Source of the DNA: Halomonas sp. M20
GTDB taxonomy: Bacteria; Pseudomonadota; Gammaproteobacteria; Pseudomonadales; Halomonadaceae
Length of the DNA: 64,000 nucleotides
NCBI RefSeq assembly: GCF_020622265.1
Contig: NZ_JACNMQ010000003.1
Coordinates: forward strand, 124,001-188,000
Direction: 5' to 3'
Below the pieces are notes generated by a model. The model was not told the DNA's origin. It searched no databases and saw only the letters and a program-made list of their open reading frames with translations. Below, piece after piece: positions 42,972-53,672 of the stretch; the stretch's first letter is position 1, and every line of letters begins with the position of its first letter. Both the position numbers and the translations under genes were made by a program.

Positions 42972-43268
42972 TTACAAGACTAGAGGCGGTTCGAGCAGAT
43001 AGAGCATTGCAATCGTACCCAATGCTGCCATGGCCAATACCAGCAAGTCGTCCGCTAGCTGGATGGCGTAAGAAAATGTAGCAAGCTGAATGGAGCCAAG
43101 GCTGGCAAGCATGGCAAAAATCAGCAATTCACCCGGGATGGTGCCACTCATGAATATTGAGCTGCACAGCAATACCAGTATCGCGATAGACAGAAAGTAC
43201 GGTTTCATCAAGGATTGGAGCATTCCCTGATTGGCTGGAGAATGGATAGGCTGAGCAAGCATCGTCAT
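42972..43268 (-). CDS. Small membrane protein of unknown function, near a PmrA-box-like repeat
   Basis: 98 residues, not recognised. Three hydrophobic segments (about 22-42, 45-67, 72-93) with the sequence FSYAIQLADDLLVLAM carrying the only acidic pair. AAGGA lies 8 nt before the start. A direct repeat of the PmrA-box type (43322-43338) lies 54-70 nt upstream, and the gene is followed in the same strand by nothing else, so it may be a single PmrA-controlled gene next to eptA. A role in tuning lipid A enzymes is possible but only by analogy. Confidence 0.6.
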   Translation of the reverse strand: MTMLAQPIHSPANQGMLQSLMKPYFLSIAILVLLCSSIFMSGTIPGELLIFAMLASLGSIQLATFSYAIQLADDLLVLAMAALGTIAMLYLLEPPLVL

Positions 43269-43321
43269 ACGTCTTTTCCTTACCCGAAAGAGTAGGTGTC
43301 TTGCCAGGCTAGACGGCTTTG

Positions 43322-43338
43322 CTTAAAGAAATCTTATG
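43322..43338 (-). promoter_or_regulatory. Imperfect PmrA-box-like direct repeat upstream of the 98-residue membrane protein
   Basis: On the plus strand CTTAAA, five bases, CTTATG. The two half sites are 11 nt apart; the second departs at one base from YTTAAK. Reading on the minus strand gives CATAAG-N5-TTTAAG ahead of the gene starting at 43268. Confidence 0.45.
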
Positions 43339-43354
43339 ATTTGACCCTCCTCCA

Positions 43355-45031
43355 CTATTTCCCCGATAAGATCACTGGTGCTCGACACGACCGGCCGATA
43401 TCCAGCGTCGGGCGATAAATCTCCGTCGTCACATCCAGAATTCCCAGGACCGTATGGAATAGGTTGGCATGGCTGTAAGGCTCATCAGCCTTCGTTTTCA
43501 AACACGTGGCATCGATGCCTGTACGTTTTCGCATGACGCCGGAAATCCACCAGACCATAGGCACCTGAGTCTGCTCGTCTGGGGCGATGATGTAGGGCAA
43601 GCCATGCAGATACACCCCGTTTTCTCCCAGCGACTCACCGTGATCGGAGAGATAGATCAATGACGCAGCGAAGCGTTGCTGCTGGTCTAAAAAGTCGACC
43701 ATGTCGCTGAGCACCCGGTCATTGTAGAGGATAGCGTTGTCGTAACTGTTGACGATCTCCTGTTGGGTGCATTTGCTTAAATCCGCGTTGTCGCAGGTGG
43801 GCGTAAGGTCCCGAAACGCATCGGGATAGCGCTGATAATAGCTGGGTCCATGATTACCCAGCTCGTGTAGCACGATCACCGTGTCGCCGGTGCTTTGCTC
43901 GATGCGTCGTTTCAATTCTTCCGCTAGGGCCTCATCGAAGCAGCGTCCGTTTTGACACAAGGAAGGATAATCCTTGGCTGAAATCGAGGCATTGACGACA
44001 CCGTTACAGACGCCCTTGCATCCCGATTGGTTGTCCAGCCAGGTCACGTCGATGCCGGCATGCTGCAACACGTCGAGCAGGGACTCGTGATGTGCGATGT
44101 AGGACTTGTCGTAATCCTCATGCCCCAGCGGTGAGAACATGCAGGGCACCGAGACGGCGGTGCTGGTACCGCAGGCCGAGACTTCGGAATAATTGATAAC
44201 GTCACGCTGGGCCAGTTCCGGCGTGGTCTGACGCGAATACCCATTCAGCCCCCAGTTGGCCGCGCGTACGGTCTCGCCGACCACGATGACCAGCAAGGCG
44301 GGCTTCTGGTTTGGGTGATCGGTGATCGAGGCGTCGTTCTCGAGGGGCAGTCGCTCTTGCGGCGCTACCTGATCGTTAGTGGCGAGTACGCGCTCCATCG
44401 ACACGATGTAGTTGCCTGGCGTCACCAAGTAGCGCAGTTCGGGCTGATTGCGCATCAGCGGCGACAGATGTTGGTACATGAGGAATACCGACGCGACCAG
44501 GACGACGGCGCTGAGCGATAGATAGCCCGTACGGCGCAGCAGCGCGCGCCGCCAGGAAACTACCGGAATGTGAATCCGGGACAGCAACAGGATGGGCAGT
44601 ACCGCGAAAAGCGTCATGTGCAGGAGGAAGCCACCAGTCAACAGCTCGCCGGCTTCCTGGGTATCCGTCTGCAATACATTGGTGATCATGGTGCTGTCGA
44701 AGTAGGTGCCGTAGCTATTAGTGAAATAGCTCACCGCGGCAGCTATCAGGATCAGTAAAGCCAGTAGTGGCTTGACCGTCCAGCGGCTCACGAACAGCAG
44801 GAATACCACATACTGCAGGCTGGTCAGAACCACCGCGTAACCCGCAGCGAGTAGCCAAGTACCGGGTGCCGTCGGATCGTGCCCAGCGAGCGTACTTCGC
44901 CAGAAGGCAAGGTTGTACAGCAAGGTAAATGTTAGCGTCGTTACCAGGGTGAGGCGCTCTGGCCCCATGCATAGCCGGTAATACCCTACATAGGCAAGTG
45001 TGCCCTTGAGTCGAGAGAACAGGGGCATCAT
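43355..45031 (-). CDS. eptA: EptA-type lipid A phosphoethanolamine transferase
   Basis: 558 residues: five N-terminal membrane helices (to about 185) and a periplasmic sulfatase-fold domain. The metal site VVGETVRAANWGLNGY is at about 250-265, the nucleophile is Thr289 in ACGTSTAVSVPCMFS, and the later metal ligands are in SDHGESLGENGVYLHG. Paired cysteines (SGCKGVCNG, CQNGRC) match the disulfides of EptA. It transfers phosphoethanolamine to lipid A, giving polymyxin resistance. It overlaps the PAP2 gene stop by 4 nt. Confidence 0.93.
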   Translation of the reverse strand: MMPLFSRLKGTLAYVGYYRLCMGPERLTLVTTLTFTLLYNLAFWRSTLAGHDPTAPGTWLLAAGYAVVLTSLQYVVFLLFVSRWTVKPLLALLILIAAAVSYFTNSYGTYFDSTMITNVLQTDTQEAGELLTGGFLLHMTLFAVLPILLLSRIHIPVVSWRRALLRRTGYLSLSAVVLVASVFLMYQHLSPLMRNQPELRYLVTPGNYIVSMERVLATNDQVAPQERLPLENDASITDHPNQKPALLVIVVGETVRAANWGLNGYSRQTTPELAQRDVINYSEVSACGTSTAVSVPCMFSPLGHEDYDKSYIAHHESLLDVLQHAGIDVTWLDNQSGCKGVCNGVVNASISAKDYPSLCQNGRCFDEALAEELKRRIEQSTGDTVIVLHELGNHGPSYYQRYPDAFRDLTPTCDNADLSKCTQQEIVNSYDNAILYNDRVLSDMVDFLDQQQRFAASLIYLSDHGESLGENGVYLHGLPYIIAPDEQTQVPMVWWISGVMRKRTGIDATCLKTKADEPYSHANLFHTVLGILDVTTEIYRPTLDIGRSCRAPVILSGK

Positions 45032-45765
45032 AGGGAATTTCTCGCGGTGGAGCCTGACTCAGCAGGAGAATAAGATCGAGTTTTGGTGTGGCTTGGCGGT
45101 CGCAACAGGAGATGGGCCAGCAACAGGCTGATCGTCCAGCAGATCATCAACGTCCACAGGTCATGAGAAAGAAAATGCGCGCCCCGCAGTTGCTGTGCGA
45201 ATCCGAAGAAAAGCCCCATCGACAACCCGACCGACAAGCCAAGCCAGCGCCATCGGGGGAGCGTTGCGGCAAAGAAGAAATACAGGGCGAGCCAAGCGTA
45301 ACCGGCGCTAGCATGGCCGGCCGGGAAGCAGGCGGTATCGGGTAAATTTGCAGGGCGGCTCTCGAACAAACCGATGAAGGGTAAGTCGCCGCCGTAACGC
45401 GCGAGATCCCAGGGGCAGTCCATGCTCACCAGCTGCTTGAGTGTCGAAATACTCAACGTCGAGAGCAGTACGCTGAGTATCAGATAAGCCAATGAGCGAC
45501 GCCATATGCGTAGCGAGGGCCATACCATGCTGATAATGAGTCCTGCGATCGCAATGGCGCCCATCGTCTGACTCACGGCACGGCCACCGCCATGCAGGAG
45601 TTCCTCGGTAATAAGCTGATGTTTCAGTGTCCATTCGTTGCCTTCCACTCGGTAAAGCCAATCCGCAACGACGAAATCAATGCCATAGTATTGAAAGAGA
45701 AATGTCAGCATCAAAAAACCGATCCAAGCTAGAATTAGCGGCTGACAGAATCGTTTGCTACTCAA
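45028..45765 (-). CDS. PAP2-family membrane phosphatase
   Basis: 245 residues with six membrane helices. The three phosphatase motifs are present: KQLVSMDCPWDLARYGG (the CPWDL variant of KxxxxxxRP), PAGHASAGY (PSGH variant), and RGAHFLSHDLW (SRxxxxxHxxxD variant). Such enzymes remove phosphate from undecaprenyl diphosphate, phosphatidylglycerol phosphate or lipid A (LpxE/LpxT type). It is coupled to eptA by a 4-nt overlap, so I infer action on the same lipid substrates. Confidence 0.88.
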   Translation of the reverse strand: MSSKRFCQPLILAWIGFLMLTFLFQYYGIDFVVADWLYRVEGNEWTLKHQLITEELLHGGGRAVSQTMGAIAIAGLIISMVWPSLRIWRRSLAYLILSVLLSTLSISTLKQLVSMDCPWDLARYGGDLPFIGLFESRPANLPDTACFPAGHASAGYAWLALYFFFAATLPRWRWLGLSVGLSMGLFFGFAQQLRGAHFLSHDLWTLMICWTISLLLAHLLLRPPSHTKTRSYSPAESGSTARNSL

Positions 45766-45860
45766 TTTACGATCACTCTTTATTCATTGATATTCAGTGA
45801 ATGTAGGTATGAAGAAAAGGCAATTTAATTGCAGATAGCAAAGCATTGTGATGAACAACA

Positions 45861-45877
45861 CTTAACGAATACTTAAG
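45861..45877. promoter_or_regulatory. PmrA-box-like direct repeat between the PAP2-eptA unit and the metallophosphoesterase gene
   Basis: CTTAAC, five bases GAATA, CTTAAG. It lies about 96 nt upstream of the PAP2 start on the minus strand and 142 nt upstream of the metallophosphoesterase start. It fits YTTAAK-N5-YTTAAK except for the final C of the first half. The minus strand reads CTTAAG-N5-GTTAAG. Confidence 0.55.
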
Positions 45878-45936
45878 TTGGGGAGGAGGGCTAAAAGAAA
45901 ATAAGAATGCGCTTTAAATTGGTTTTTTGAATTTAT

Positions 45937-45953
45937 TTTAAGATTGTATTAAG
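45937..45953 (+). promoter_or_regulatory. Second PmrA-box-like repeat close to the metallophosphoesterase gene
   Basis: TTTAAG, five bases ATTGT, ATTAAG, with the half sites 11 nt apart, ending 65 nt before the GTG start at 46019. The surrounding DNA is very AT-rich, so a chance match is more likely than for the other copies. Confidence 0.35.
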
Positions 45954-46018
45954 AAATTAAAGGGATAGTGAAATACCTTCCGCTTCTTATTTATGCCCGC
46001 ACATAGGGAGGGTAGAGT

Positions 46019-47098
46019 GTGACCAAATGCTCAAATAAGCGTTTCAAGATCGTCGGCGGAGTAACGGCTGTTCTGATCTTGACGGGGCTCATCACGATCC
46101 AGGCCACCCATGGCCAGATATTTTCCATGGCGACGTCGTGGCTGGCCGTCGAATCACGTCAGGTCGGGAGTGTCTTTGCCGATTCCGGTGAGCAGGCCAG
46201 TATGATAAGAGACAAAAAAGCCGGGAAAGATGCCGTGCTATTGGCCGCGGGTGATATCGCCCGCTGTCAGCCGCATGAGGGCTTCGATAAAACCTTGCGG
46301 AATCTCGAATATACGTTTGGAGATGCCGCTCCTAGACCCTTGAAGGATGCGGGCGCCCGACAGACGGCAAAACTTGTCGATGACTATCCAGGCGTACCGG
46401 TACTGGCCCTTGGTGACTTGGCTTATCCTGACGGCGCACCCGTCGATCTCAACCTCTGTTACGACACCTATTGGGGACACTTCAAAGAGCGCACCTATCC
46501 CACTCCCGGCAATCACGAATATCACTCCCTCAATGCCTACGCTTATTATGATTACTGGGGTGATAGGGCGGGTCCAGATAGACGCGGCTACTATGCCAAG
46601 CGCATGAATGACTGGCTCGTGCTATCTCTCAACAGCGAAGTACCGGCCGATAAGGGGTCTGCTCAGGCAAGCTGGCTCGAAGATCAACTAGCGAATTCGG
46701 ATGCCGCTTGTGTACTCGCCTTCTTCCACAAGCCTGCCTTTTCGACCAAAAAACGCGATGACAGCGAAGATGCTCGTCGGCTGTTCGATCTTCTCTTTCG
46801 CAACGGCGCAACGCTGGTCCTGAACGGCCACAATCATTTCTATGAACGAACGCGGCCCCTCGACGGCCAGGGACGAGTCGATCCTGAAAACGGCATCGTT
46901 ACCTTCGTGGTCGGCACTGGCGGCACGTATACTGACGATTCAAGAGAACCAGAGGCGTTTTCTGAACGTCTGATTGGAAATACCTACGGTATGCTGAAAC
47001 TCACACTGTCCAAAGATGGATACAATTGGCAGTTCCTGTCGGCGGAAACAGGTGAAGCGCTCGATAAAGGCACGGGGTCGTGTAATTCACGTTCCTAG
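46019..47098 (+). CDS. Secreted or membrane-anchored metallophosphoesterase (purple acid phosphatase-like)
   Basis: 359 residues. One hydrophobic segment at about 10-27 acts as signal or anchor. The calcineurin-type metal motifs are LAAGDIARC (GDxx), VLALGDLAYPDG, PTPGNHEYHS (GNHE), CVLAFFHKPAF and LVLNGHNHFYERT (GHxH). Its substrate is a phosphate ester outside the cytoplasm. The GTG start has GGAGGG 8 nt upstream. It diverges from the PAP2-eptA unit and shares PmrA-box-like sites with it. Confidence 0.82.
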   Translation: MTKCSNKRFKIVGGVTAVLILTGLITIQATHGQIFSMATSWLAVESRQVGSVFADSGEQASMIRDKKAGKDAVLLAAGDIARCQPHEGFDKTLRNLEYTFGDAAPRPLKDAGARQTAKLVDDYPGVPVLALGDLAYPDGAPVDLNLCYDTYWGHFKERTYPTPGNHEYHSLNAYAYYDYWGDRAGPDRRGYYAKRMNDWLVLSLNSEVPADKGSAQASWLEDQLANSDAACVLAFFHKPAFSTKKRDDSEDARRLFDLLFRNGATLVLNGHNHFYERTRPLDGQGRVDPENGIVTFVVGTGGTYTDDSREPEAFSERLIGNTYGMLKLTLSKDGYNWQFLSAETGEALDKGTGSCNSRS

Positions 47099-47099
47099 A

Positions 47100-47264
47100 G
47101 TGAACCATGGTATCGATGGCCTGAAAGTGATCTTCCTGGTGCCCACGGCGCTGAGCATCACCAGCATATGGGTCGCCGTGATGGCGGATGCCGGTGCGAC
47201 GGTACTGGTGACCCTGAACGCTATACGACTGCTGGGTTGTCGCAAGAGACAGCCTTGCCAATGA
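47100..47264 (+). pseudogene. C-terminal remnant of a heavy-metal P-type ATPase (ZntA/CadA/CopA type)
   Basis: About 54 codons in one frame with the ending GLKVIFLVPTALSITSIWVAVMADAGATVLVTLNAIRLLG, quoted here as VFLVPTALSITS-like and VAVMADAGATVLVTLNAIRLL; the MADxGATVLVTxNAxRLL pattern is the last helix of zinc/cadmium exporting P1B ATPases. No other part of the ~700-residue protein is present; the upstream DNA is the metallophosphoesterase gene in another frame. It is a scrap left by deletion or insertion. Confidence 0.8.
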
Positions 47265-47268
47265 AGGT

Positions 47269-47400
47269 TCAGAAAATCTCCAACAAGAAGGGGGTGACGA
47301 GCAGGATCAATACGAATAAAGGTATCGGGCTTCGATTCGGTCGATAAGTAAGAACGAGTGCGCAGGCTTCGTACATCAACAGCAGGGTTCTAAGCGACAT
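47269..47400 (-). CDS. Possible small membrane peptide, 43 residues
   Basis: From ATG 47400 the peptide begins MSLRTLLLMYEACALVLTYR and has a second hydrophobic stretch IPLFVLILLVTPFLLEIF at the C-terminus. No family is recognised and the ribosome site is weak. Two points favour it: a PmrA-box-like repeat (47470-47486) lies 70-86 nt upstream, and minus-strand TAGTAT sits 15 nt after its second half site. It could equally be a non-coding leftover beside the ATPase scrap. Confidence 0.35.
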   Translation of the reverse strand: MSLRTLLLMYEACALVLTYRPNRSPIPLFVLILLVTPFLLEIF

Positions 47401-47469
47401 GGTCAGAGTCATCCATTTGCGGGCTGATGGGTCATGCACCGTGAATCGATACTAGTATCGCCCGATCGC

Positions 47470-47486
47470 CTTAATGTTTTCTTATG
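47470..47486 (-). promoter_or_regulatory. PmrA-box-like repeat downstream of the GT39 gene, facing the 43-residue ORF
   Basis: Plus strand: CTTAAT, five bases GTTTT, CTTATG. The same second half (CTTATG) occurs in the copy at 43322-43338. Both face a small membrane-protein frame on the minus strand. Confidence 0.45.
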
Positions 47487-47520
47487 CATCCCCTTTTTCG
47501 GATAATTGAGTCAATAGTGC

Positions 47521-49251
47521 TTACTCTTTCGCCTTGTTTGTATTCAGCGTGGTGGGCGCAACATATAGTGGCGCAGCGTTCTCATCACTATTACAGCCCA
47601 AGACGGCGCTGCCCGGTATTAGCCACCAGTCGTCGCTATTCTGATGACCCATGTCCCTAGCTTGGCTCAGATCGATACATGAATAGTCATCGGCCCGACG
47701 CTGTTCGGTGAGCATCCAGTGCCGATTCGGGGCTTCCTGCAGCCAGGCGAAGGCGCGGACGAATTGCGCACCGATTGGCGTCCTGTCGCCGAAGTGAACG
47801 CTGGGCTGGCGTGACTGCAGCAAAAATTCCTCGTCGAAACTCGGCAACGCCAGCCAGGCATCACCACCCGTGATCGTAACAATCGCCTGCATCATCCGCG
47901 CCGGTGAGCGGGTCTCGTTTTGCAATACATAACCCCAAGTTGACCAAGTGATCCAGAACACCGCCAGCCACAGTGGCAGCGCCAGCATGCCGCGTCGTGG
48001 TCGCAGCCAGGCGAGAAGCCCCGCCGCCGTTACACCGAGCACGATCCACCAGGCCCAGGGCACGATGTCGTGACGCTCGGCAAGTTTTGTCAGCGCCGGC
48101 AGCCCTAAAGCGCCAAGCAGGCCGGCGGCAAACAGGGTCCCACCCAGCAGGGCCAGCACGCCGGTGCCTAGCCAATGCAGGCCTCGCTTGCGCAGCAAGC
48201 CCGGCAGAAGCGGCGCCAGGGCTAGCACCAGCAATGGAATCGTCGGCAGAACGTAGACGCCGCGTTTGCCCGGCGACAGGGAGAAGAACACCAGGATCAG
48301 GATCACCCCGCTCAGCGGTAGCAGCAGGCGCGCATCGCCACGCCGGGCCCGCCGCCGCCAGGCGGGTATCGCCCAGGGCAGTGCCAGCACCAAGGGCATC
48401 CAGGCCCAGGGCAGCACTTGGACGAGGTAGTAATACCAGGGCTCGAGATGGTGCCAGGAATCGGCGTAGCGCTCGCCGGTCTGCTTGAAGAGAATGTTGT
48501 CGCGATAGGCCGCAAGACTCGGATCGTCGCCGAAGGTAGCGACGAGGATCATCGGTACGCCCCAAAGGGCGACCACGGCGAGTAGCACCACCATGCCTAG
48601 GCCTAGATCTTTCAAGGCGATCCGAGTGGCCTGGCCGCGCCAGGCAAACCAGAGCCAGGCGGGCAACAGTAGCAAGGGCAGAAAACCTACGCCCTTGGTA
48701 ATGATGCCAAGTCCCATCGCTGCAAAACCGATGAGCCACCAGCGTCTGGTGGGCCCAAGCAGTGCATGGCGAAGCAGCCCGTAAGCGCCCAGGGTGGTGA
48801 AGAAGGTCAGCAGCATATCGATTTGGGCGGCCTTGGCCTGGATCACGAACTGCAGGGTCGTCAGCAGGGCTAGACCGCTGAGCAGGGCAACACGCTGGCC
48901 GTAAAGCCGCCGCGTCAAGTCCACGACCAGAGCCAACGTTCCTAATGCTGCAAACAGTGAAGGCAGCAAAAACCCCAGTCGCACGGAGCCGGTGAAAGCA
49001 ATGGACAGCGCCGAGGCCCACATGAATAGTGGCGGTTTGTCCGGATAAGGCTCGCCGCCCCGATGAGGAAACCAGAACTGACCGGTCTTGAGCATTTCCA
49101 GGGCATTCAAGGCAAAGCGCGGCTCGTCCGCGGGCCAGGGATCGCGCAGGCCAATCCCTATACCGAGCAGCACCAGCGCGAACAGCATGAGTGCAAGCCA
49201 TGCCCAGCGATAGGAGTGATTCAAATGACGTAGATAGGCAGCGCGATGCAT
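47521..49251 (-). CDS. ArnT-like glycosyltransferase, GT39/GT83 family
   Basis: 576 residues with about twelve membrane helices and a periplasmic C-terminal part. The first outer loop has the acidic catalytic motif (RDPWPADEPRFALNALEMLKTG) and then HRGGEPYPDKPPLFMWASAL, both typical of ArnT and related polyprenyl-phosphate-sugar transferases that decorate lipid A. Donor sugar cannot be read from sequence; the epimerase and GT2 in the same unit point to a uronic acid. It is the last gene of a four-gene minus-strand unit. Confidence 0.88.
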   Translation of the reverse strand: MHRAAYLRHLNHSYRWAWLALMLFALVLLGIGIGLRDPWPADEPRFALNALEMLKTGQFWFPHRGGEPYPDKPPLFMWASALSIAFTGSVRLGFLLPSLFAALGTLALVVDLTRRLYGQRVALLSGLALLTTLQFVIQAKAAQIDMLLTFFTTLGAYGLLRHALLGPTRRWWLIGFAAMGLGIITKGVGFLPLLLLPAWLWFAWRGQATRIALKDLGLGMVVLLAVVALWGVPMILVATFGDDPSLAAYRDNILFKQTGERYADSWHHLEPWYYYLVQVLPWAWMPLVLALPWAIPAWRRRARRGDARLLLPLSGVILILVFFSLSPGKRGVYVLPTIPLLVLALAPLLPGLLRKRGLHWLGTGVLALLGGTLFAAGLLGALGLPALTKLAERHDIVPWAWWIVLGVTAAGLLAWLRPRRGMLALPLWLAVFWITWSTWGYVLQNETRSPARMMQAIVTITGGDAWLALPSFDEEFLLQSRQPSVHFGDRTPIGAQFVRAFAWLQEAPNRHWMLTEQRRADDYSCIDLSQARDMGHQNSDDWWLIPGSAVLGCNSDENAAPLYVAPTTLNTNKAKE

Positions 49252-49268
49252 GACGAGGCGAATTCCGT

Positions 49269-49571
49269 TCAGGGAGAAGGGGGTGCCGCGTTTTTCTCAT
49301 AGCGTACTTCGCGACTTTCACGCCGGATTAGCATCAAGTTGCGGGCATAGATGAACAGCCCCGCCCCCTGACCGGCGATGAATACCGGATCACGCCGATA
49401 GAGGGCATAAGCCAGCAGCGTAGCCCCGCCCCCCAGGCTCAGGAACCAGAAGGCTTTGGGCACGATGCTGCGTCGAGCGCGTTCACTGGCCAGCCACTGC
49501 ACGATAAAGCGTGCCGAGAAGAGCGCCTGTCCCAGAAAGCCGATACTCAGCCAGAGCCACTCGCTGTTCAT
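49269..49571 (-). CDS. LAB_N domain membrane protein (lipid-A-disaccharide synthase N-terminal domain family)
   Basis: 100 residues with three membrane helices. The family pattern FLGQALFSARFIVQWLASERA at about 13-33 and VPKAFWFLSLGGGATLLAYALYRRDPVFI, of which PKAFWFLSLGG is most conserved, mark the LAB_N domain. Standing alone it usually accompanies GT2/GT39 pairs and is thought to help present or flip the lipid-linked sugar; that role is inferred. It overlaps the GT2 gene by 4 nt and precedes the GT39 gene by 17 nt. Confidence 0.88.
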   Translation of the reverse strand: MNSEWLWLSIGFLGQALFSARFIVQWLASERARRSIVPKAFWFLSLGGGATLLAYALYRRDPVFIAGQGAGLFIYARNLMLIRRESREVRYEKNAAPPSP

Positions 49572-50371
49572 GGCGTTTCCTCTGAAGGCGGCGCCGCGGA
49601 AGTAGGGGTGCCGGCTATGTTCTGTTCAGATATGGGGAGCGCACTGTTTTCGAGAGGCGCAGGCAAGCGGGTGCGCCGTTGCAGCCACATGACGCCGACA
49701 ATATCCACGAGCCCTACCCAAAGGCGATTGTTCAATCCGTAATGGGAGGCGCCGGTGCCTCGGGGGCGATGGTTGACCGGCACCGAGACACACTGGCCGC
49801 CCTGGGCCTGGATCAGTGCGGGTATAAAACGGTGCATGTGATCGAAATAAGGCAGCCTCAGGAAGACGTCCCGACGCATGATCTTGAGGCCACAGCCGGT
49901 ATCCGGCGTGTTGTCCTTGAGCAGGGCCGAGCGCACACGATTGGCGACCCGAGACGATAGTCGCGTGAGTCGATTGTCCTGGCGTTGCACCCGATGACCG
50001 TTGACCAGGGCAATGCCCTCCTGGCGGGCCTTGCCGTACAGGCGGGGAAGATCCGCTGGATCGTTTTGTCCGTCGCCGTCCAGGGTCGCAAGCCAGGTGC
50101 CGCGAGCCGCCCAGGCAGCCTGCCAGATCGAGGTGCTCTGGCCGGCGCTGCGCGTATGGCGCAGAGGCCGCAAGCGAGCATTTTGAGCGGCGCGCTGGCT
50201 TAGCAACGTCCAGGTTGCGTCCGTGGAGCCATCGTCCACCACCAGGATTTCGTACTCCTCATCGGGGAGGGCGGCGGCGATTTCATCCAGTAACTGAAAC
50301 AGGTTTCCTGCTTCGTCCTTGGCCGGAATAAGAATGGAGAGTAACGGTTGGGGCATGGGTGAACGTTCCAT
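49568..50371 (-). CDS. Polyprenyl-phosphate glycosyltransferase, GT2 (DPM1/ArnC/RgtE-like)
   Basis: 267 residues. The GT2 fold shows SILIPAKDEAGNLFQLLDE, VVDDGSTDATW and the metal-binding DGDGQNDP. The C-terminal segment VGLVDIVGVMWLQRR is only weakly hydrophobic, so the protein is peripheral rather than having the two helices of ArnC. It would charge polyprenyl phosphate with a nucleotide sugar on the cytoplasmic face for the GT39 enzyme to use. It follows the epimerase gene by 23 nt. Confidence 0.87.
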   Translation of the reverse strand: MERSPMPQPLLSILIPAKDEAGNLFQLLDEIAAALPDEEYEILVVDDGSTDATWTLLSQRAAQNARLRPLRHTRSAGQSTSIWQAAWAARGTWLATLDGDGQNDPADLPRLYGKARQEGIALVNGHRVQRQDNRLTRLSSRVANRVRSALLKDNTPDTGCGLKIMRRDVFLRLPYFDHMHRFIPALIQAQGGQCVSVPVNHRPRGTGASHYGLNNRLWVGLVDIVGVMWLQRRTRLPAPLENSALPISEQNIAGTPTSAAPPSEETP

Positions 50372-50394
50372 GGGGTAGTAAACAAAAGGCGTGA

Positions 50395-51423
50395 TTAGCC
50401 TAGTTTCGAGGCAAGCGATTTGATCTTGTAAGGTTTGCCGACTGCATCATAGTAGTGGCGGTACCAGTCAACGAAACGTTGCACTCCTGTGGCCAGGTTG
50501 GTGCGGGGTCGAAATCCCGTAGTAGCAAACAAGGGTTCGGCATCCGCCCAGGTATGCTGCATGTCGCCGGGCTGCATGGGCAGGTAATCGCAGCGGGCCT
50601 CGATTCCGGTCGCCTCCTCGAGGGTGCGTACCAGCGTCATCAGGTTGACGGGGCTACCATGGCCGAGATTGTAAAGCCGGTAAGGGGGATCGTTGCGGTC
50701 CTTTCCGTGGCTGGGCACGATGTCCAGAATGCGTACGATGCTTTCCGTAATGTCGTCGATATAGGTGAAATCCCGGGACATGTCACCTTGGTTATAGAGC
50801 TCGACAGGCCTGCCGTCGAAGATGTTACGGGTGAACTTGTATAGCGCCATATCCGGACGCCCCCAAGGGCCATACACGGTAAAGAAGCGCAGTCCCGTGG
50901 TGGGTAATCCGTAGAGGTAGGAGTAGGCATGGGCCATCAGTTCGTTGGACTTCTTGGTAGCGGCATACAGGTTGACGGGTTGATCGACGCTATCCTTAAC
51001 CGAGAAAGGTACCTTGGCATTGCGACCGTAGACCGAACTGGATGATGCATAGACCAGATGGCCGACCTGCTGCCGGCGGCACCCTTCCAGCACGTTCAAA
51101 TGCCCAATCAAATTGGACTGGCCATATACCTGTGGGTGATCCAGGGAGTATCTCACCCCCGCTTGGGCCGCCAGATGCACCACGCAATCGAAGTGCGTCT
51201 CGGCGAATAGGCGCTGCATGCCCTCGGTATCGGTAAGATCCAGACGCTGGAAACGCACATTGCCAAAACCCGACAGGTCGTTCAATCGCGCCTGCTTGAT
51301 GGCAGCATCGTAGTACTCGTTGAGGTTGTCGATACCCAAGATCTCGTGGCTCGCATCTTCGGCAAGCCGGCGCGCCAACGCATGACCAATGAACCCGGCC
51401 ATGCCGGTGATGAGGACCTTCAT
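50395..51423 (-). CDS. NAD-dependent epimerase, UDP-glucuronate 4-epimerase-like
   Basis: 342 residues from ATG 51423 (MKVLITGMAGFIGHALARRL). The nucleotide motif GxxGxxG, the segment LNEYYDAAIKQARL typical of UDP-glucuronate 4-epimerases, SSSSVYG, and the catalytic YAATK are all present. The enzyme is predicted to make UDP-galacturonate from UDP-glucuronate. It leads the unit epimerase-GT2-LAB_N-GT39, with a PmrA-box-like site 44 nt upstream of its start. A 4,6-dehydratase alternative is less likely because of the ExYYD loop. Confidence 0.88.
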   Translation of the reverse strand: MKVLITGMAGFIGHALARRLAEDASHEILGIDNLNEYYDAAIKQARLNDLSGFGNVRFQRLDLTDTEGMQRLFAETHFDCVVHLAAQAGVRYSLDHPQVYGQSNLIGHLNVLEGCRRQQVGHLVYASSSSVYGRNAKVPFSVKDSVDQPVNLYAATKKSNELMAHAYSYLYGLPTTGLRFFTVYGPWGRPDMALYKFTRNIFDGRPVELYNQGDMSRDFTYIDDITESIVRILDIVPSHGKDRNDPPYRLYNLGHGSPVNLMTLVRTLEEATGIEARCDYLPMQPGDMQHTWADAEPLFATTGFRPRTNLATGVQRFVDWYRHYYDAVGKPYKIKSLASKLG

Positions 51424-51466
51424 GAGCTGCTCCCAATGATAAGCTCGAGTAGCATGCACCAACAGC

Positions 51467-51483
51467 CTTAAGGGAGGCTTAAG
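51467..51483. promoter_or_regulatory. PmrA box between the sugar-transfer unit and the two-component genes
   Basis: CTTAAG, five bases GGAGG, CTTAAG: an exact YTTAAK-N5-YTTAAK match with identical halves, palindromic in each half, so either strand can be read. It is 44 nt from the epimerase start and 130 nt from the response regulator start. Confidence 0.7.
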
Positions 51484-51612
51484 TATTCTATCGCTAAACT
51501 CCTCACGACTTGGCCAAAATAGCCTGACCTTGGCTGTTTATGCCGATGCGGATATTCAAGAACAGTATGAGCTCTTAGGTGAAAGGCTTTAAAGGATCAC
51601 GAGGGTGATGGC

Positions 51613-52275
51613 GTGCGCATATTATTGGTAGAAGATGATCCATTGCTGGGCGATGGTATCAAAATCGCTTTAGAGCGCGAGGGCTATGTGGTGGACTGGT
51701 TCATGCGAGGAAGCGAGGCGGTCAGCGCTATTGGCACCGAAGCATTCTCAGTGATGATCCTCGATCTGGGGCTACCCGATATGGATGGCATGCAGGTGTT
51801 GAATCGCATCAGGCAGGGCTCGTCCTTGCCAATACTGATCCTGACGGCCCGGGATGCGGTAGAGGAGCGCATTCGTGGATTGGATGCCGGGGCCGACGAT
51901 TATGTGCTCAAGCCCTTCGATCTGCAGGAATTGCTGGCGCGTCTGCGGGTGGTCACGCGCCGCGCCGAAGGAAGAGCCTCGCAAGCTTTGACCCTTGGCG
52001 AGCTGTGTATCGATGAGGCTCGTCATTGGGTGAGCTGGCAGGGCCAGGAGGTCAAGTTGAGCCGGCGGGAATATGCACTACTGCTTGAGTTGGCTCGTCA
52101 TCCGGATAGGGTGCTCTCACGACCACGATTGGAAAGCCTGCTATATGGCTGGGGAGAAGAAGTGGAATCCAACGCGGTGGAAGTGCATGTACATCATTTG
52201 CGTAAGAAACTCGACAAAGGATTGATCATTACTGTACGAGGTATCGGTTACCGGCTGGACAGTCAGGCCACATGA
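51613..52275 (+). CDS. pmrA: Response regulator, OmpR/PhoB class, PmrA (BasR)-like
   Basis: 220 residues. Receiver: MRILLVEDDPLLGDGIKIAL, phospho-acceptor Asp51 (VMILDLGLPDMDG), and LILTARDAVEERIRGLDAGADDYVLKPFDLQELLARLR, in which ADDYVLKPF is the usual signature. Winged helix ends VRGIGYRLD. The GTG start is preceded by GAGGGTGAT. It could also be called QseB; the eptA/ArnT-like neighbours and box-type sites favour PmrA. Its stop overlaps the sensor start (ATGA). Confidence 0.87.
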   Translation: MRILLVEDDPLLGDGIKIALEREGYVVDWFMRGSEAVSAIGTEAFSVMILDLGLPDMDGMQVLNRIRQGSSLPILILTARDAVEERIRGLDAGADDYVLKPFDLQELLARLRVVTRRAEGRASQALTLGELCIDEARHWVSWQGQEVKLSRREYALLLELARHPDRVLSRPRLESLLYGWGEEVESNAVEVHVHHLRKKLDKGLIITVRGIGYRLDSQAT

Positions 52276-53672
52276 AATCCATTCGTCGCTATCTTGCCCA
52301 GGCCCTGGCGCTAGTACTGACAGTAACTGCACTGCTGATTGTAACGGCAGCGTACCTGATAAGCGATCACGAACTGGAAGAAATCTTGGATGCTCAGTTG
52401 AGTTTGCAGGGACGTATCGTTGCCGGACTGATTTCCCCCGCTACCACTCTCGAAGAATACCAGCGCATCGCTCGAAGCCTCACTCTGCCGGGACATGAGG
52501 CACGAGTCTACGATAAGGAGGCAGGGGTCGAACCGGCGTCGCTACAAACCCCGCCCGCGCGGCTTTATCACGAGGAAGAGCGCATGCTGTCGATCGGCTT
52601 CTGGAATGCCGATGGCTCGCCTCGTCTGCAAGGAGCCAAATGGAACGAGGAGGGTCTTTTTCCGATGCCGACAAAAGAGGGCTACCGATGGGTAGACTAC
52701 ACTGAAGATCAATGGCGCGTGTTCAGCTTATTCGATACTACTAGCGATACGTGGATCAGTATCGGCGTACAAAAAGACTTTCTTGATGAGATTGTCGAGC
52801 GTATAGCGCTCAATACTCTGTGGCCGATACTACTTCTGTTGCCGCTGTTGCTGTGGTTGATGACCCGCATCATTCGTCGAGGTTTGACCCCCATCGCACT
52901 GCTATCCCGCCAAGTCCAGGGGCGGGATGGTCAGGATCTGACACCGATCGATCTCAATGTACCCCAGGAGCTTGATGGGCTGCAGCGCTCGCTAAACGAT
53001 TTTATTGCCCGATTGGGCAAGACGCTGGAGCGTGAGCGGTGCTTTACCGCAGACGCGGCCCACGAATTGCGCACGCCTCTAGCGGCCCTCAAGATCCATC
53101 TCGAAAACGCACAGGCTGGCGAGGCAGACTCGCTACAAAAAGCCACCATTGGAGTGAAACGACTTCAACGAGTGGTGGAGCAGCTATTGGTGTTGGCAAG
53201 ACTTGATCGTGCCTCAAGTAACCAGGCCCGATTGATTGACATTTATCCTATCGTTGCTGAGCTTACCGCCGACCTATGGCCCTTGGCGCACGCACGTGGG
53301 CAAGAGCTCTCATTGTCGGGGCTTTCACAGCTGTCGGTACGTGCCGATCCGGTGGAAGTCGGTATTCTGCTGCGCAATCTGCTGGACAATGCACTGCGCT
53401 ATACACCGGAAGGGGGGCATGTCGAGGTCGAACTTTACCACCAGCAAGGTACGCCGCAAGTCATCGTACGAGATACCGGCCCGGGGATTCCCGAGGAGCT
53501 ACTCGACACAGTCGTCGAGCGCTTCCGGCGAGCCTCGGATCAGCGCACTACAGGGAGTGGGCTTGGGTTGTCCATTGTCGTGGAGCTGGCTCAACGGCAA
53601 CAAGCTGAGGTGCGATTGAGTAACCATCAGCCTTATGGCCTTGAGGCGCGAGTTGTTTGGCCGGCATCATAG
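52272..53672 (+). CDS. pmrB: Sensor histidine kinase, PmrB/QseC-like
   Basis: 466 residues: a first membrane helix at about 8-30, a periplasmic sensor of about 145 residues, second helix at about 183-198, HisKA with His264 in TADAAHELRTPLAALKIH, and HATPase with LLDNALRYTPEGGH and GSGLGLSIVVELAQRQ. In the family it responds to ferric iron, aluminium, low pH or cationic peptides. The ligand motif of PmrB is not clearly recognisable in the periplasmic part, so the stimulus is open. Confidence 0.87.
   Translation: MKSIRRYLAQALALVLTVTALLIVTAAYLISDHELEEILDAQLSLQGRIVAGLISPATTLEEYQRIARSLTLPGHEARVYDKEAGVEPASLQTPPARLYHEEERMLSIGFWNADGSPRLQGAKWNEEGLFPMPTKEGYRWVDYTEDQWRVFSLFDTTSDTWISIGVQKDFLDEIVERIALNTLWPILLLLPLLLWLMTRIIRRGLTPIALLSRQVQGRDGQDLTPIDLNVPQELDGLQRSLNDFIARLGKTLERERCFTADAAHELRTPLAALKIHLENAQAGEADSLQKATIGVKRLQRVVEQLLVLARLDRASSNQARLIDIYPIVAELTADLWPLAHARGQELSLSGLSQLSVRADPVEVGILLRNLLDNALRYTPEGGHVEVELYHQQGTPQVIVRDTGPGIPEELLDTVVERFRRASDQRTTGSGLGLSIVVELAQRQQAEVRLSNHQPYGLEARVVWPAS

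Follow-up and report, generated by a model that had tools for sequence, protein, structure and literature searches.

Introduction

PmrA-type control is usually explained as adding positive charge to lipopolysaccharide (LPS), and the usual sugar, as in the aminoarabinose (Ara4N) pathway formed by the Arn proteins and placed under PmrA, is itself positively charged. A system for an acidic sugar is that of galacturonate (GalA), to which RgtA-C and the Rgt enzyme classes belong. In rhizobia, Mesorhizobium and Caulobacter, RgtE is described as a bactoprenyl-phosphate-GalA transferase and other transferases put GalA on lipid A (excerpt of PMC7663294). GtrABC-type systems are made up of a polyprenyl-phosphate-sugar synthase, a small membrane protein proposed as flippase, and a GT-C transferase (excerpt of PMC11127046). 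Here we describe a locus at positions 42,972 to 53,672 of a 64,000-nucleotide stretch of the Halomonas sp. M20 genome (the window), in which the genes of a PmrA/QseB-type two-component system adjoin an epimerase-GT2-LAB_N-GT39 operon. The profile-based gene identities, operon layout, boxes in the locus and its family, co-occurrence, conserved residues and predicted GT39 fold established in this analysis suggest that this regulator pair probably controls a three-component LPS glycosylation unit adding a hexuronic acid, most likely galacturonate.

The locus resembles the Rgt system in combining a proposed lipid-carrier GalA synthase with a predicted transferase to lipid A or core, but its operon is preceded by PmrA-type boxes and includes a LAB_N protein and an epimerase. 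With the Arn system under PmrAB it shares the type of regulator, the box, the ArnT fold, an ArnC-like GT2 and the link to EptA. It differs from that system in that the genome has no ArnA match, an epimerase takes the place of the Ara4N genes, LAB_N stands where the Arn pathway has ArnE/F, and the GT39 scores below the ArnT cut-off. A GT2, a small membrane protein and a GT-C transferase are also the parts of GtrABC-type systems, whereas the second slot of the locus is held by LAB_N (or VTT/DedA) and not by a GtrA or MATE protein. Klebsiella Uge, which converts UDP-glucuronate to UDP-galacturonate, has been placed under Fur (excerpt of PMC11282780), unlike the locus epimerase with its PmrA-boxed operon. 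The Rgt system, Arn under PmrA and Gtr-like three-component systems are already known; what appears to be new is the combination with PmrA-type control and a LAB_N/VTT slot. No report of this combination, or of PmrA-controlled uronate addition, was found in a literature search from which subscription papers were mostly out of reach.

Results

The operon and its conservation

The operon and the divergent regulator genes are as follows.

47521..49251, minus strand: GT39 / ArnT-fold periplasmic glycosyltransferase (PF13231)
49269..49571, minus strand: LAB_N protein, three helices (PF07578, 112 bits)
49568..50371, minus strand: GT2, predicted polyprenyl-phosphate uronosyl synthase (PF00535)
50395..51423, minus strand: predicted UDP-glucuronate 4-epimerase (Uge-like), ATG start (match to 5u4q)
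51613..52275, plus strand: PmrA/QseB-type response regulator (model scores)
52272..53672, plus strand: QseC/PmrB-type sensor histidine kinase (model scores)

GT2 and LAB_N overlap by 4 bases, as do the neighbouring PAP2 and EptA genes, and the remaining operon gaps are 17 and 23 bases. Every gene named in the original prediction, which had been made from the window alone (EptA, PAP2, epimerase-GT2-LAB_N-GT39 and the regulator pair), was present with the named domain; a metallophosphoesterase, two small open reading frames (ORFs) of 98 and 47 amino acids (aa) and the PmrA-type boxes had not been listed there.

Relatives of the GT39 (E <= 1e-20) were found in 59 of the 151 family genomes examined. 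Of the 58 further genomes with a GT39 match, 35 were picked across genera and 40 loci were fetched from them as stretches of 12-18.5 kb; 39 of these loci have GT2. The search for the gene set, suggested in the original prediction, showed GT2-LAB_N-GT39 kept together in 39/40 of these loci. A regulator or kinase relative was present in 26, an epimerase in 27, and EptA or PAP2 in 7 of the 40. Across the family genomes, EptA was enriched with GT39 (21/59 versus 11/92, p 9e-4, kinship uncorrected); 38 of the 59 GT39-positive genomes lacked an EptA match at E <= 1e-100.

Three records from elsewhere bring EptA and the unit together. GT39, EptA, GT2 and LAB_N lie in one stretch with a regulator pair in Pseudoxanthomonas kalamensis (L139), and with DgkA and PAP2 in a proteobacterial metagenome-assembled genome (L152); on a Salinimonas iocasae plasmid record (L094), EptA and diacylglycerol kinase accompany a regulator pair and GT2-VTT-GT39.

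Eleven of the fetched loci have a second, more distant GT39 (28-33% identity), and others show one by weaker matches. In seven (L040, L041, L044, L045, L068, L070 and L071) the second GT39 (28-32% identical), located beside the GT2-LAB_N-GT39 operon, has an epimerase (50-54%) and a regulator pair as neighbours; it may be a second uronate transferase.

The donor sugar

The nearest solved structure to the epimerase was 5u4q (E 1.3e-133), which is deposited as a dTDP-glucose 4,6-dehydratase and which we take to be Klebsiella Uge; the epimerase is also about 58% identical to Klebsiella proteins that are presumably Uge. The equivalents of Thr178 and Arg185 are kept, as seen when FTVYGPWGRPDMA of the epimerase is aligned to FTVYGPRQRPDMA of BcUGAepi, the Bacillus cereus UDP-glucuronate 4-epimerase, in which we assume Thr178 to be a carboxylate-pocket residue. 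Arg185 lines the carboxylate pocket of that enzyme (excerpt of PMC12338863). The stretch FTVYG..RPDMA was visible in 38/38 epimerases of the fetched family loci. An epimerase was found in all 59 GT39-positive genomes versus 37 of the 92 GT39-negative ones (Fisher 1e-16, kinship uncorrected), and the single such epimerase in the genome of strain M20 (E <= 1e-70) is the operon's copy.

Related loci in other bacteria place the donor genes beside the unit. In Aeromonas caviae (L093) an epimerase and a nucleotide sugar dehydrogenase adjoin GT2-LAB_N-GT39; the best model for this dehydrogenase is the UDP-glucose 6-dehydrogenase TuaD, with a score below the TuaD cut-off, and the M20 genome encodes a dehydrogenase 60% identical to it. 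An epimerase-dehydrogenase pair also adjoins GT2-VTT-GT39 in Shewanella HN-41 (L116). The order epimerase-GT2-LAB_N-GT39 recurs in Pseudomonas citri and in a P. fluorescens record (L099, L100), and Paracoccus (L097) has the same four genes in another order. The proposal of a uronate donor is upheld by the epimerase residues, the 59/59 co-occurrence with GT39 and the dehydrogenase beside the epimerase in relatives, and the protein is predicted to be a Uge-like UDP-glucuronate 4-epimerase.

Alternatively, a three-component LPS system under PmrA-type control could have a GT2 that uses UDP-glucuronate or a neutral hexose, the epimerase serving another glycan. The specificity of GT2 is unreadable from its sequence, and the occurrence of the epimerase in GT39-negative genomes, as well as the many family loci in which it is either separated from GT2 or not within the stretch fetched, would fit such a system. 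Its presence in every GT39-positive genome, its place at the head of the operon here, in close kin and in the two Pseudomonas loci, and the fact that the operon's copy is the sole one found in the own genome nevertheless make this alternative unlikely.

The glycosyltransferases and the acceptor

The predicted structure of the GT39 (predicted local distance difference test, pLDDT, 92.9) matched ArnT 5f15 with a Z score of 35.3 over 506 residues, the next non-ArnT fold reaching 25.7, in support of the transferase that had been proposed. Residues D42, E43, R45, K72, D145, K329 and Y333 were identical in 48/48 aligned sequences. RYA and YFEKP have been described as motifs of ArnT (excerpt of PMC5377068); the GT39 reads RFA and YPDKP at these places, with Phe for Tyr43, a required residue by the same excerpt, and with Lys69 kept. 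R330 is Arg in 40/40 close relatives and in one of eight distant ones, and ArnT has Leu there by alignment. With the ArnT model NF009784 the protein scored 78.5 bits, far below the cut-off of 567, and it was therefore not filed as ArnT. It is the one GT39 found by PF13231 in the own genome.

The nearest solved relatives of GT2 were the ArnC structures 9hwj, 9bhc and 8vxh, aligned over residues 7-217, that is, over the catalytic part only. No segment of GT2 is strongly hydrophobic (the highest mean over 19 residues is 1.07). Alphaproteobacterial GT2s fall in the same tree as the locus GT2, a predicted polyprenyl-phosphate uronosyl synthase.

The GT39 family covers many acceptors, and EptA is without a match in most GT39-positive genomes (see above). 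Three-component systems decorate O-antigens (excerpt of PMC11127046). The acceptor could accordingly be an O-chain, an exopolysaccharide or a glycoprotein, with the link to EptA reflecting a shared stress regulon only. This we consider quite unlikely, as ArnT is by a wide margin the nearest fold to the GT39, and the EptA linkage recurs in Pseudoxanthomonas kalamensis, L152 and Salinimonas.

The Arn genes had been described as absent. For ArnA this held: no match at E <= 1e-100 was found in the own genome or in the 59 GT39-positive genomes, and 3 of the 151 family genomes had one, although the anticorrelation with GT39 is not significant (0/59 versus 3/92, p 0.28, kinship uncorrected). The only match of the ArnT model was this GT39, and ArnB-F were not searched singly. 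That the locus makes a cationic sugar instead (Ara4N or galactosamine, using further genes at other sites), which ArnC and ArnT as nearest solved structures of GT2 and GT39 might suggest, is highly improbable given the lack of an ArnA match in the own or any GT39-positive genome and of a deacetylase or aminotransferase among the ten locus proteins scanned, no genome-wide search for a NaxD/ArnD-type deacetylase having been made.

The regulator pair and the PmrA-type boxes

The response regulator scored 230 bits with the PmrA model NF007928 (cut-off 330) and 226 with the QseB model NF007663 (cut-off 345), and the histidine kinase 223 bits with the QseC model (cut-off 475) and 202 with that of PmrB (cut-off 314). 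As no equivalog cut-off was reached, the earlier label PmrAB should read PmrA/QseB-type; the data support a regulator of PmrA type and its box, both here and across the family, but not PmrAB identity. The direct repeat CTTAA-N6-CTTAA is, we assume, the recognition pattern of PmrA and QseB. Five sites with no or one mismatch to it lie inside the interval.

43322..43337, plus strand: PmrA-like box with one mismatch, CTTAAAGAAATCTTAT, upstream of p98 (the 98-aa ORF)
45861..45876, plus strand: exact PmrA-type box, CTTAACGAATACTTAA
45938..45953, minus strand: exact PmrA-type box, CTTAATACAATCTTAA
47470..47485, plus strand: PmrA-like box with one mismatch, upstream of the 47-aa ORF
51467..51483: PmrA-type box in the gap that separates the epimerase operon from the regulator genes, exact in both orientations

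In the 3.89-Mb genome the exact repeat occurs in four places, three of them in this locus, the fourth being in a 3-kb stretch without an ORF longer than 127 aa. The core TTAA-N7-TTAA was found three times in the window, in all cases in the two divergent intergenic regions of the locus; 0.20 would be expected in the window, and none of 100 shuffles reached three. This concentration of exact sites is a striking feature of the locus. An exact box is also present at the counterpart of 51467..51483 in L033, L034, L037 and L039. Counted from 350 bases upstream to 80 downstream of the first gene of the operon, 26 of 39 family operons had an exact box, compared with 187 of 7800 random windows from the same loci, box places included. 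Boxes, exact or with one mismatch, lie near the pap2 and pmrA starts in several family loci, and upstream of the metallophosphoesterase gene in L052 (exact) and L033 (one mismatch). The boxes are predicted sites of the regulator, in the locus as in the family.

An exact box precedes the uronate operon in 15 genomes without an EptA match. Taking into account that 38 of the 59 GT39-positive genomes have no such match, the regulon of this family seems to have the uronate unit among its core targets.

The LAB_N protein and its alternation with VTT/DedA

We know of no explanation for a separate role of the LAB_N domain. The protein was modelled as three helices (pLDDT 92.4). Compared with the SWEET structure 5ctg, the model gave Z 6.7 and a root-mean-square deviation of 2.7 over 90 residues, a result that unrelated helical structures equalled; a Foldseek comparison of the fold gave E 0.57, and among the sequences of solved structures nothing matched below E 0.49. 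MtN3_slv (SWEET family) was the second Pfam match in 16 of 80 LAB_N relatives, at best with E 0.00046. No LAB_N protein was found in viral contigs.

Among the best 80 GT2 loci kept by a scan of other bacteria, GT2 was followed by LAB_N in 45 and by a VTT/DedA protein in 11, never by both, and by neither in 24; 49 of the 80 had a GT39 no more than 4.5 kb away. In two of the loci with neither, L177 and L178, GT2 itself carries a long hydrophobic C-terminus. On a GT2 tree made by a quick method, with the 24 'neither' loci left out of the count, the LAB_N/VTT label required 8 changes compared with a shuffled mean of 11.2. Since the labels are clustered, the mutual exclusivity could partly reflect ancestry, and since starred branches force only two changes, at least two are secure, not eight.

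Work on DedA and DUF368 proteins has shown them to be undecaprenyl phosphate flippases, and one P. aeruginosa strain requires PA4029 for Ara4N on its lipid A (excerpt of PMC12893004). On account of the slot shared with VTT/DedA, these reports on DedA and the MtN3_slv matches, we propose that LAB_N is a polyprenyl-phosphate-sugar flippase and/or a membrane partner of GT2.

Apparent GT2-LAB_N and GT2-VTT fusions were rejected, the long 'labn' and 'vtt' ORFs being over-extended frames that overlap GT2. In a Caulobacterales-type arrangement (L155, 7831-8259, plus strand; also L132, L147 and L154), LAB_N/VTT is replaced after GT2 by a membrane-like protein of 142-160 aa. Pfam gave no match for the L155 slot protein or for the ORFs that lie upstream of either GT39 or GT2 in L152 and L140.

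Linked phosphatases and small ORFs

The remaining genes of the locus are the following.

42972..43268, minus strand: p98, 98-aa hydrophobic ORF, probable regulon member
43355..45031, minus strand: EptA, phosphoethanolamine--lipid A transferase (NF028537, 595 bits, cut-off 500; PF08019, PF00884)
45028..45765, minus strand: PAP2-superfamily membrane phosphatase (PF01569, 46 bits)
46019..47098, plus strand: metallophosphoesterase, purple acid phosphatase-like, N-terminal hydrophobic segment, probably exported (PF00149)
47269..47412, minus strand: 47-aa hydrophobic ORF

EptA scored above the NF028537 cut-off and missed that of the narrower equivalog NF008619 (542 versus 660 bits). The PAP2 protein has PAGH and RGAHFLSHD stretches common to six family copies, and it matched no solved structure at E <= 1. 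That PAP2 opens the lipid A site, as had been suggested, was not sustained: with the lipid A phosphatase model NF028538 it scored 90 bits against a cut-off of 275, its gene overlaps that of EptA, and PAP2 or EptA lay within only the 7 family loci mentioned above.

The metallophosphoesterase matches purple acid phosphatases with E about 3e-6. It was found in 5 of the 151 family genomes, all GT39-positive (5/59 versus 0/92, p 0.008, kinship uncorrected), and in L033 and L052 its gene is a neighbour of the second GT39. Either this enzyme or PAP2 could remove phosphate.

No Pfam or NCBIfam match was found for p98. A relative in L052 lies directly after GT39 (59% over 92 aa), and a PmrA-like box with one mismatch is at -69 before p98 both in the window and in L052. 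Relatives of the 47-aa ORF, after GT39 or elsewhere in L033-L039, share an LRTLLLxYEAxxVL-like stretch, and a one-mismatch box precedes 6 of 8 copies. Boxes like those before p98 and the 47-aa ORF were seen in 80 of 4000 random 170-base windows. Over its first 40 codons the 47-aa ORF differs from its L034 copy by 9 synonymous and 6 non-synonymous changes; the L038 and L039 copies have C-termini that do not resemble those of the rest. An NCBIfam search with this ORF gave no match. PmrR is a PmrA-controlled small peptide, and the 47-aa ORF is possibly a functional analogue of it.

Convergent with the 47-aa ORF is the remnant of a P-type ATPase C-terminus (47107-47263, plus strand), as is also the case in L035 and L036; the L036 counterpart has an E1-E2 ATPase domain.

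Discussion

From these observations we infer the substrate, the direction of transport, the acceptor, the direct binding of the regulator and the roles of the phosphatases. UDP-glucuronate would come from a UDP-glucose dehydrogenase whose gene lies outside the locus, and the epimerase would convert it to UDP-galacturonate. GT2 would load the sugar onto polyprenyl phosphate, and the LAB_N protein would be a membrane platform for GT2 and/or move the lipid-linked sugar across the inner membrane. In the periplasm the ArnT-fold GT39 would then transfer it to lipid A or the inner core. EptA-PAP2, the metallophosphoesterase, p98 and the 47-aa ORF, all of which have such a box, either exact or one mismatch away, would belong to the same response.

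Several observations weigh against this interpretation. By script, 13 of the 39 family operons lack an exact box, two of them (L033 and L037) being scored as misses although an exact box is present (owing to a wrongly assigned gene start or lead gene). Relaxed forms of the box show no excess: one-mismatch boxes are common genome-wide (45 sites listed versus 107 for the reversed control), the YTTAA form occurs 8 times versus 18, and boxes with two mismatches number 23 in the window compared with 21.4 in shuffles. The epimerase is not exclusive to the pathway, because GT39-negative genomes also have it; in many family loci it lies outside the GT2 operon, and among the 80 GT2 loci elsewhere only 9 have an epimerase within 5 kb and 3 have a dehydrogenase. 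Finally, as the negative surface charge is not reduced by adding an acidic sugar, the benefit in a PmrA-type response must come from replacing or blocking phosphate or from cation bridging. That uronate acts by replacing or shielding phosphate, or by cation bridging, is our conjecture.

A further-reaching proposal can be put forward tentatively, as possible and well short of probable in its entirety: that LAB_N is a SWEET-fold polyprenyl-phosphate-uronate flippase exchangeable with DedA/VTT in the same operon slot, and at the same time that the PmrA-type response of the family has been rewired from positive charge to a cation-bridging acidic sugar, with the aid of an exported phosphatase and of a small membrane ORF that has a box before it. 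The alternation of LAB_N and VTT leads to a specific proposal, open to testing, on a small membrane domain that is widespread. If uronate addition under this regulator pair is true, a PmrA-type response can serve another chemistry, for example phosphate replacement or cation bridging.

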